Assembly (NCBI GenBank): GCA_003313425.1 | Contig: NHZP01000017.1 | Coordinates: forward strand, 620,001 to 684,000 | Direction: 5' to 3' | Length of the DNA stretch: 64,000 bases | Source: Pseudopyrenochaeta lycopersici | Lineage: Eukaryota > Ascomycota > Dothideomycetes > Pleosporales > Pseudopyrenochaetaceae | Shown: in pieces, positions 20,203-23,108 of the stretch | Position numbering within the stretch: the first letter of the stretch is position 1 | Layout of the letters: the number at the start of each line of letters is the position of its first letter | Notes under the pieces: model-generated | Databases searched by the model: none | Seen by the model: the letters and a program-made list of their open reading frames with translations, nothing else | Told to the model about the DNA's origin: nothing | Program-made: the position numbers and the translations under genes

Positions 20203-20208
20203 AAAAAA
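20203..20208 (-). terminator. RNA polymerase III terminator
   Basis: Six T residues on the minus strand begin about 13 nt after the tRNA 3' end, and a second run of seven T lies at 20192-20198. Both are normal Pol III stop signals and suggest that the tRNA gene is, or recently was, transcribed. Confidence 0.7.
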
Positions 20209-20220
20209 GAAATCGTGTTA

Positions 20221-20382
20221 AGCCCGATGCGGGGGTCTATTAGATGTTAGGAACCAGCTTCGAACGAGCGGATTTAGTGTGGGGGAAACTAACCGAACCC
20301 GCAACCTTGAGATTGCTGTCAATCGTGTCTGTTGGACCGTGAAGCTAAGAGTCTCACGCTCTACCGATTGAGCTAACCGGGC
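20221..20382 (-). tRNA. tRNA-Lys (CTT) with two insertions
   Basis: The 162-bp minus-strand gene folds to a 73-nt tRNA after two removals. Acceptor stem GCCCGGT pairs with ATCGGGC (one G-U), the D stem GCTC with GAGC, the anticodon stem TGAGA with TCTCA, and the T stem GCGGG with CCCGC. The anticodon loop is CTCTTAA, so the anticodon is CTT (Lys). A 32-nt intron at 20345-20314 sits after position 37, the normal eukaryotic site. A second, 57-nt insertion at 20293-20237 splits the T-loop between G57 and A58; without it the loop is TTCGACC. The A box TAGCTCAATCGG is intact; the B box is split by the insertion. All stems being perfect argues against an old pseudogene. Confidence 0.85.
20237..20293 (-). 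other. 57-nt T-loop insertion with spliceosomal intron signals
   Basis: The insertion begins GTTAGT and ends ATAG. It contains CTAAC at 20250-20246, with the branch A ten bases before the terminal G. Length and signals match ordinary mRNA introns in this window. It also holds a B-box-like GTTCGAAGC internally. It could be a spliceosomal or introner-type intron inserted in a Pol III gene, an ectopic tRNA intron removed by the tRNA endonuclease, or an insertion that inactivated the gene. The end positions can slide by one base because G flanks it. Confidence 0.7.
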
Positions 20383-21018
20383 GTTGTTTGATTTGATGTC
20401 TATTTTGCTGTCTGCAAAATATATATTGGGTGCAAAAAATGAGACCACATCAAAATTATGCCGAGGAGCTAGGGTGAGGGGCACATGGCTACAGATTCAG
20501 GAATGTGGCGGGGTAAGAGAAACTTTTTCTCGGCTTTATGACCCTTTACTAGGCTGCCGTTGCCGTCGAAGTGCGGAACAAAGCTGATGGCTCTTGCCCG
20601 TTGGAAATGCTTAGCGAACCCATCAACCACCCGCAGACTTTGACGCGTCCGGCTTCACCATGACAGCAAAGGGCATCTTACCTACCAAATGTTTGCAGCA
20701 TGAGATTCTGATTTGCTGCCGAATAGCTCTTGTTAGTGAGAAGCCAGTCTTTGCCTGATTGCACGATATTCGCTTTTGCAAGTTCTGTTGTGAGGAAAGC
20801 TCGACCCTCGACTCTACATTTACTGTTCATCGAAAAGGACTGGTTCTGGTAACAACATCGCGTGTCCAAACCACTCGATTGAATCATCCATCGAATTCCA
20901 TCATTTGTAGCGTCACAGCATCAGTGCAAATGTGCATCTTTAGAATATTCTTGGTTTCTAAAGGCTCAACCTTACTACCCTCTTTCGCTTCCAATGGCCA
21001 CCTCGGGTACTTTCTGGA
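20383..21018. other. Intergenic stretch
   Basis: Upstream flank of the tRNA gene and 3' flank of the SnoaL-like gene. No gene seen. The tRNA lies about 640 bp downstream of that gene on the same strand, so a long Pol II 3' UTR could in principle run into it. Confidence 0.5.
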
Positions 21019-21992: not shown

Positions 21993-23108
21993 CTAGGACC
22001 CAGCCACAATATCGCTCGCATTTCCTCCTCTTCCACCTCCCCTCCCTCCTCGACCCCCTCGTCCGCCTCTTTTTCCCTTTCCTCGAGTATCCCGAACCTC
22101 TTGTTCCCACTCTTCGATATTGACGACCACACCTTCTGGTAACTTTCCGTCGCTCATAAGCACACCACCACCTTGTTTCCTGCTCTCCACACGTTTGAAG
22201 AATTCATACGACAAGAATCCCTGCTCATTGCCTTCCGTCAAAATAACGCCATTCTCGCTGATGAAGAACTTGATGCCTGCGGCTAGAGCGGCGGAAATGT
22301 CAATGTAGACTAGGATGGATGAGTTCTTGCGCATGCCCGAAATGACAGGAGCGGCTTCCTTCTCTTCTGCCGAGCCGGCAGATGAGTCGAGAGTTTTGAA
22401 GCCTGTCGGTAGGCCAGATGCGAAGTGGATGTGATTCCTTCCCATGCGCCGTAGACCACCGCTCTTCAGGATCAACTTCCAAGCAGACTCATCGGTGCCA
22501 TGAACAACGGTGGCTGGCACATTTCCTGCTTCTTCAGTAATCGGAACAAGTAAGCCTTCTATATCAACTTGGATTGAGTGACCCTGATTCGCACGGATGA
22601 GATAATCTGACGGCTCCTCGGATTCTGGAATAGGGTCGAACTCTTCGGATTGAGGCTTCTCCTGCGGCGATAATGCAGCTTCGGAAGCTGATACTTCTTC
22701 AAGCGATGACGCGAGGATCATAGAAAAGCGTTGTTTGTCGTTGCTTGCGACTACTTCGCGAAGCTCTTGGAATGTGACCTTCAAACTCTTGAGAGCTTTG
22801 GTGTTTAGCTAGAGAATTTTAGCATGTAGTTCCAGATGAAATGAGATCTGGTTATAGCAAAGAAATCCTAGGTTTCGTAGCCATTGCCTTTGGCCCATAT
22901 TTGCTTGTTCCATCTCTTTTGAAGAGCGTTTACTTGATCAAAGCGAACTTACCGCATCCTGCGCATTAACATACCCACCCTTTCCCAACTTCAACCCCTC
23001 TGAGCCCGCACCATGCCTCAGCAACCAACTAACTTTTCTTGATACCTGCTGGTCTCTAGGCTGATTTGCTGGGTTGCGGCTACCGCCGCCACGTCCACCT
23101 CTGCCCAT
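21993..23108 (-). CDS. TPT1: tRNA 2'-phosphotransferase Tpt1
   Basis: Two minus-strand exons, 23108-22953 and 22808-21993, join across a 144-nt intron into 323 residues. Tpt1 moves the 2'-phosphate left at the tRNA splice junction to NAD+, the last step of tRNA splicing. Family motifs are SWLLRHGA near residue 30, IRANQGHSIQVD, VVHGTDESAW, GLRRMGRNHIHFASG and VYIDISAALAAGIKFF. A Glu/Ser-rich insert (SASEAALSPQEKPQSEEFD) separates the N-terminal winged helix from the catalytic lobe. Both ends are RGG-rich (GRGGRGGGSR at the start; a longer run near the C-terminus), which suggests RNA binding or methylation. An intron-containing tRNA-Lys lies 1.6 kb away, probably by chance. Confidence 0.92.

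Follow-up and report, generated by a model that had tools for sequence, protein, structure and literature searches.

The splicing of tRNA and the splicing of mRNA are taught as separate systems, and work by Frendewey from 1990 is said to have placed a B box within the U6 intron of fission yeast. The removal of an intron from the fission yeast U6 transcript by the spliceosome is described in PMC10484740, and according to a passage of a 2017 study, frequent interruption by an intron is known, among small structured RNAs, for U3 and U6 only (PMC5832005). Spliceosomal introns are also described in fungal 18S genes (PMC11889510), and non-canonical tRNA introns in archaea, nucleomorphs and a red alga (PMC4090602, PMC3978253); a term search of PMC4033280 did not encounter the spliceosome. 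Searches of an open literature library, which lacks most subscription papers, listed no tRNA gene with a spliceosomal intron, and priority is not established.

The window analysed here is a stretch of 64,000 nt from Pseudopyrenochaeta lycopersici (contig NHZP01000017.1). Its minus strand, on which all features of this paragraph are located, harbours a tRNA-Lys(CUU) gene at positions 20382–20221. Exon 1 (20346..20382) comprises tRNA positions 1–37 with the 5' strand of the acceptor, the D arm including the A box, and the anticodon. It is followed, after position 37, by a canonical tRNA intron of 32 nt (20314..20345), which is of the tRNA-endonuclease type by position. Exon 2 (20294..20313) covers positions 38–57, namely the 3' part of the anticodon arm, the 5' strand of the T stem and TTCG of the T-loop, while exon 3 (20221..20236) covers positions 58–73. 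Between these two exons, at T-loop positions 57/58, lies a second block of 57 nt (20237..20293) with the appearance of an mRNA-type intron: a 5' splice site GTTAGT (20288..20293), a branch-point-like CTAAC (20246..20250) with the branch A 10 nt before the intron end (9–16 nt in 21 mRNA introns), and a 3' splice site TAG (20237..20239). The ends of this block are fixed because a paralogue, L002, shows the empty site.

Once both blocks are taken out, a 73-nt tRNA with every stem paired is obtained. The first-pass annotation had recovered the cloverleaf and the CTT anticodon only after both removals, and the coordinates and ARAGORN agree: the latter called tRNA-Lys(ctt) of 73 nt from the doubly spliced form only. 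It called nothing on the raw gene or when just the canonical intron was removed; with just the T-loop block out, it saw a cloverleaf, shifted the 32-nt intron and named the product Ala(agc). In the raw window, no tRNA was detected by ARAGORN, and none by Rfam at the gathering threshold. The T6 terminator claimed earlier is indeed present (20203..20208, minus strand) and is followed by a T7 run, and TATATAT is found upstream of the gene at about -43 to -37 (20419..20425, minus strand). Of the upstream regions of 35 nuclear tRNA genes, the Lys gene included, 13 contain such a TATA-like motif, versus 2.4–2.8% of random window stretches; TTTT is found within 45 nt downstream of 34 of the 35 nuclear tRNA genes. 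After splicing, the Lys gene thus combines an intact cloverleaf with Pol III signals.

Some side observations were made around the gene. The 7-mer CGGTTAG occurs both at the tRNA 5' end (20379–20373, minus) and at the T-loop exon–intron junction (20295–20289, minus), which may be chance. The 2'-phosphotransferase Tpt1/KptA is the finishing enzyme of canonical tRNA splicing; its gene (PF01885) lies at window positions 21993–22784 (minus), 1.6 kb from the Lys tRNA, probably by coincidence. The protein of a neighbouring SDR gene has as its top named match Pyrenochaeta sp. MPI-SDFR-AT-0127 (85%), followed, among the best 120 of 2055 matches, by many Pleosporales and also by the basidiomycete Coprinopsis. 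Judged by this single protein, an origin within Pleosporales is likely.

The splicing signals were scored with a donor/branch/acceptor model built from 21 mRNA introns of the same genome (46–68 nt). Introns were taken between Ras and proteasome exons, where 20 of 26 intervals were used according to the best frame fit, one tie being decided by eye; a further intron, picked out by eye, comes from the window. Of the dropped intervals, L088, L097 and L110 are longer than 100 nt, L086 and L091 offered no candidate that fits, and the best candidate of L103 starts with GTTAGT and is devoid of a branch site. On this model the Lys block scores 14.4 bits, which equals or exceeds 5 of the 21 mRNA introns in leave-one-out scoring and is reached by 11 of 227,311 genomic 57-mers. 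The earlier claim that the block carries the same signals as mRNA introns holds for CTAAC, for TAG and for the overall score, and is weakest at its start: the donor GTTAGT contributes 1.5 bits, and none of the 21 mRNA introns begins with GTT. The intron of a U6 gene (see below) also begins with GTT, and the donors of seven other tRNA introns are GTAAGT or GTACGT (8.5–8.7 bits). Altogether nine non-mRNA introns were scored (Lys, Glu, five in Gln genes, Ile-like and U6), each ranking within the top 0–13 of 113,688 genomic 53-mers. A GT donor and a YAG acceptor stand at their exact ends, as in U2-type introns, and the branch distance is 10–14 nt, with one best-scoring site at 26 nt (in the gene GlnCUG2, where CTAAT is also present at the usual place). 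None of the blocks occupies the canonical position 37/38; they are located at 57/58, at 11/12 and, in the Ile-like gene, at about 68/69 by our own count. Separate introns at or adjoining 37/38 exist in some of these interrupted tRNA genes.

A genome-wide pattern search for GT-AG introns at the 57/58 T-loop site delivered 13 matches, versus 25 in the reversed control. Three of the 13 are preceded by a tRNA 5' part: the window Lys gene, a tRNA-Glu(UUC) gene and a tRNA-Gln(UUG) gene, which share the insertion site. The Glu gene (L045, G000:C16:528569, minus) combines a 53-nt T-loop intron (GTAAGT...CTAAC...TAG) with a 7-nt canonical intron, and it is readable by ARAGORN only with the T-loop intron out. 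The Gln gene (L041, hereafter UUG1; G000:C4:92045, plus) has two introns of 53 nt each, one in the T-loop and one (GTAAGT...CAG) after D-arm position 11, and was called Gln only after removal of both. Hidden tRNAs were also searched by cutting out GT..branch..YAG blocks of 44–85 nt from 281 kb of sequence (78 overlapping sequences, enriched for tRNA loci). Of 730 candidates, four gave a junction-spanning tRNA, namely Lys, Glu, a Gln(UUG) on C21, and the Ile-like L079; the mock ends GA..AG and GT..GA gave no tRNA from 938 and 841 candidates, respectively. In later loci, 3 of 139 candidates gave a tRNA, one of them repeating a gene of the first scan (mock 0/137 and 0/147), and cutting two blocks at once gave one in 76 (mock 0/85 and 0/71). 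The second tRNA-Gln(UUG) gene (UUG2, C21) harbours a 49-nt D-arm intron. In L079 (G000:C8:1069990-1070390, minus), a 57-nt GTACGT...CTAAC...CAG block interrupts the 3' acceptor strand; the T run appears to be missing because this block intervenes, a T5 run following once it is removed. The isotype of this gene is unsure, as ARAGORN gives Ile in one reading and Gln(ctg) in the other, and in our reading the anticodon stem contains a U-U pair.

In their raw form, none of the seven interrupted tRNA genes was read by ARAGORN, and in six genes block removal restores the tRNA exactly. At least five other tRNA genes besides Lys carry such introns, plus one that is less certain, and the view of the Lys block as a lone freak event is not supported. 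A genome tRNA list was also made with the Rfam model: of 2106 candidates, 63 were scored, which gave at least 61 matches. Leaving contig C107 aside, 36 matches remain, of which 33 were examined. Among these 33 of 36 nuclear tRNAs, Phe, Tyr, Trp, His, Pro, Asn, Glu and Gln are absent, and some may hide behind such introns. Contig C107 (G000:C107) looks mitochondrial and displays its tRNA clusters twice, about 32.6 kb apart, as if a circle had been assembled with a repeat.

The census of tRNA-Gln relied on one genome-wide D-loop/anticodon pattern with up to 3 mismatches. Four genes were found (two UUG, two CUG; none in the reversed control), all with a GT-AG intron after D-arm position 11 (53, 49, 51 and 52 nt). 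No uninterrupted tRNA-Gln gene was detected by this pattern at that sensitivity, nor among the nuclear tRNAs recognised directly, with no intron cut out. The D-arm introns start with GTA, as does the exon behind (GTAG), and the A-box start TAGTGTA is thereby kept. The UUG1, UUG2 and CUG tRNAs differ at 10–15 of 72 positions, whereas CUG1 and CUG2 are identical, and none of these three distinct tRNAs has an unpaired position in its acceptor, anticodon or T stem. The D-arm introns have diverged, with 43 of 48 aligned bases shared by the two CUG genes and 31 of 44 by the two UUG genes. As read from these alignments, paired changes are kept in the Gln stems while the introns have drifted apart. 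A fungus without tRNA-Gln is not viable. As this tRNA is essential, its introns must be removed, unless an uninterrupted gene was missed; since no such gene was found and the stems are paired despite 10–15 differences, intron removal very probably works. This is the strongest argument of the case, and it adds weight to the reading of the Lys block as an intron.

Two U6 genes were identified. The first (L052, 1501-1650, G000:C14:415719, plus) is uninterrupted, with a diverged 5' stem and a B-box-like GGTTCGAACGC past the terminator. By comparison with it, the second (L053, 1501-1650, G000:C19:201228, plus) contains a 52-nt mRNA-type intron, GTTCGT...CTAAC...CAG, between GACACGCTCA and ATCAAAGAGAAGCTACCA-T8. 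The 95-nt Rfam match to U6 extends into this intron and masks it. The L053 intron holds AGTTCGAGACC, a good B box of 13.3 bits (tRNA boxes of this genome, 8.0–17.3). In the first-pass annotation the Lys block was said to split the B box, which is correct, and the statement has to be amended in that the block carries a new B-box core. The B-box-like CGTTCGAAGCT (20256..20266, minus) inside the Lys intron includes the complete core GTTCGANNC, whose score of 13.5 is that of the spliced exon box; the full 11-nt score is 3.9, below the range of real boxes, and full boxes as good as this one occur in 1458 of 32,480 genomic 57-mers and in 1254 of 20,000 shuffles. Across the interrupted genes, a TTCRANNC core is located inside an intron in all four genes whose exons hold no intact B box (Lys, Glu, GlnUUG1, where it sits in the D-arm intron, and U6), and in none of the four whose exons do (GlnUUG2, GlnCUG1, GlnCUG2 and Ile-like), a split with a two-sided Fisher value of 0.029, in which Lys is no independent test since the core was first noticed there. 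The background of TTCRANNC is 1384 of 45,480 genomic 53-mers (3.0%) and 1 of 21 mRNA introns.

In the paralogue L002 (G000:C26:89306+) the T-loop is uninterrupted and the exons differ from those of the window gene at one of 73 positions, namely position 4 in exon 1 (C in the window gene, T in L002). Three other, intronless Lys(CUU) genes represent another isodecoder, different at 10 of 73 positions, and likewise have C4, so the change probably arose in L002. The canonical introns of 32 nt (window) and 39 nt (L002) are related, with 26 of 31 aligned bases identical and 5 different, plus gaps, a higher divergence than in the exons (5/31 vs 1/73, Fisher p 0.009). On these alignments, the difference shows constraint since the duplication, and it does not date the T-loop block. 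The tRNA 5' half was also searched in viral_contigs and genome_contigs, with 0 matches.

The best explanation of the Lys block is that a spliceosomal intron of the U2 type interrupts a tRNA-Lys(CUU) gene transcribed by Pol III, a reading to which we assign a probability of about 0.83; the intron would be one of a set located at 57/58 in Lys, Glu and Gln and at 11/12 in all Gln genes found. The earlier proposal, an mRNA-type intron with GT-AG ends lodged in the T-loop of a tRNA, is thereby supported, and the gene is probably functional. The most serious competitor, although unlikely, is that such introns work elsewhere and that the window gene, being redundant, was silenced by the insertion and has not begun to decay. 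The window copy had been considered a pseudogene should reads of the spliced form be missing and several intact genes exist; for the second half of this proposal, four other tRNA-Lys(CUU) genes with an intact T-loop were found (L002 and the three intronless genes). Because intact isoacceptors exist, the Lys copy alone could be a pseudogene: it is dispensable, its donor is weak, and with canonical introns so little diverged, zero changes in its exons allow a fairly late insertion. Single-copy insertions in D and T arms are also supposed to be pseudogenes in a passage of PMC4090602. However, the Lys gene has intact stems, a TATA motif and a terminator, its block carries a B-box core along with signals for splicing and branching, and the 57/58 site is also used in Glu and Gln genes.

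The other explanations are far less probable than a silenced copy. Introns of the tRNA-endonuclease type at ectopic positions, which have been proposed for tRNAs of nucleomorphs and red algae, would make GT-AG incidental and are very improbable. In the full precursor, the ends of the Lys intron can pair with a probability of about 0.7, and a crude count of bulge-helix-bulge features, in folding done for the Lys gene only, gave 3, 1 and 3 of 4 for the block, close to the 3, 1 and 4 of the canonical intron; but the minimum-energy fold is devoid of a strict two-bulge motif (two 3-nt bulges, 4-bp helix), the pairing drops to 0.17 once the canonical intron is out, and the mRNA-type donor, branch site and acceptor of nine introns are left unexplained. 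Spliceosomal introns normally reside in Pol II transcripts, so that one could think of overlapping Pol II transcripts with the tRNA being incidental, yet this is hardly credible in view of the exact tRNA restoration in six genes, and the nearest coding-looking ORF on the same strand of the window, NTF2-like, is about 0.7 kb upstream. An assembly artefact could be imagined as a single assembly was used; the recurrence at independent loci and the signals at the exact ends make it just as implausible.

As to the origin of these introns, introner-like elements form multi-copy families of near-identical sequences. Such an insertion, suggested in the first-pass annotation, was rejected for the Lys block, as a 61-nt query matched only itself at E <= 10. 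The U6 intron also matched only itself; as the Lys search misses the U6 intron, diverged kin would escape it. A pattern of the 5' motif (13 matches vs 22 in the reversed control) tests little because it was built on the U6 form, which is one base longer in a C run, and misses the Lys block. The Lys block and the U6 intron are alike at 38 of 49 aligned bases. Their global score is higher than that of any of the 21 mRNA introns against either; 59 of 5000 constrained shuffles attain it, as do 4 of 210 mRNA intron pairs; their local score is reached by 164 of 5000 shuffles and equalled by one mRNA intron. This is only suggestive of kinship. A local duplication as source of the Lys block was discarded, the match being no better than shuffles.

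From the elements described above, we infer how these genes would be transcribed and spliced. TFIIIC would bind the A box together with the intron-borne B-box core where a T-loop intron splits the gene's own B box, and Pol III would terminate at the T runs. In the nucleus, the spliceosome would cut out the introns of the D arm and the T-loop, restoring the fold required for end processing and export, and tRNA endonuclease, ligase and 2'-phosphotransferase would then take out the intron after position 37. The cell would probably need the mRNA splicing machine to make some of its tRNAs. Much more speculatively, a class of spliceosomal introns may have spread through Pol III genes by bringing or regenerating the promoter box that they split, perhaps by reverse splicing between Pol III transcripts, making the spliceosome essential to translation via tRNA-Gln. 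Promoter regeneration would involve the B-box cores of the T-loop and U6 introns and the GTA start by which D-arm introns keep the beginning of the A box.

If correct, tRNA genes, apparently including the whole tRNA-Gln set, carry mRNA-type introns, in some cases beside tRNA introns, and one molecule would undergo both types of splicing. This would extend mRNA-type introns to tRNA, beyond U6, U3 and rRNA, and would provide a clear example of introns gained by genes that encode no protein, with introns suggested to bear promoter parts. In practice, standard tRNA finders miss genes interrupted in this way.

Among known systems, introner-like elements have given new spliceosomal introns in Dothideomycetes, probably the same class (PMC4457414); unlike them, the Lys and U6 introns each match only themselves. 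In archaea, nucleomorphs and Cyanidioschyzon, tRNA introns are described outside 37/38, also in the T arm and sometimes together with a canonical intron (PMC4090602, PMC3978253). As these sources present them, their removal depends, where known, on the splicing endonuclease and bulge motifs, whereas GT, a branch site and AG are found here. Fungal U3 snoRNA and ascomycete rDNA are likewise described with mRNA-type introns in structured non-coding RNAs, although the RNAs differ (PMC5832005, PMC11889510). The introns of fungal U6 come closest, being, like those presented here, short GT-branch-AG introns in Pol III genes, and the intron of L053 contains a B box. In contrast to U6, the hosts are here tRNAs, insertion at 57/58 or 11/12 disrupts promoter boxes of the tRNA gene itself, and the transcripts also bear tRNA-endonuclease introns.
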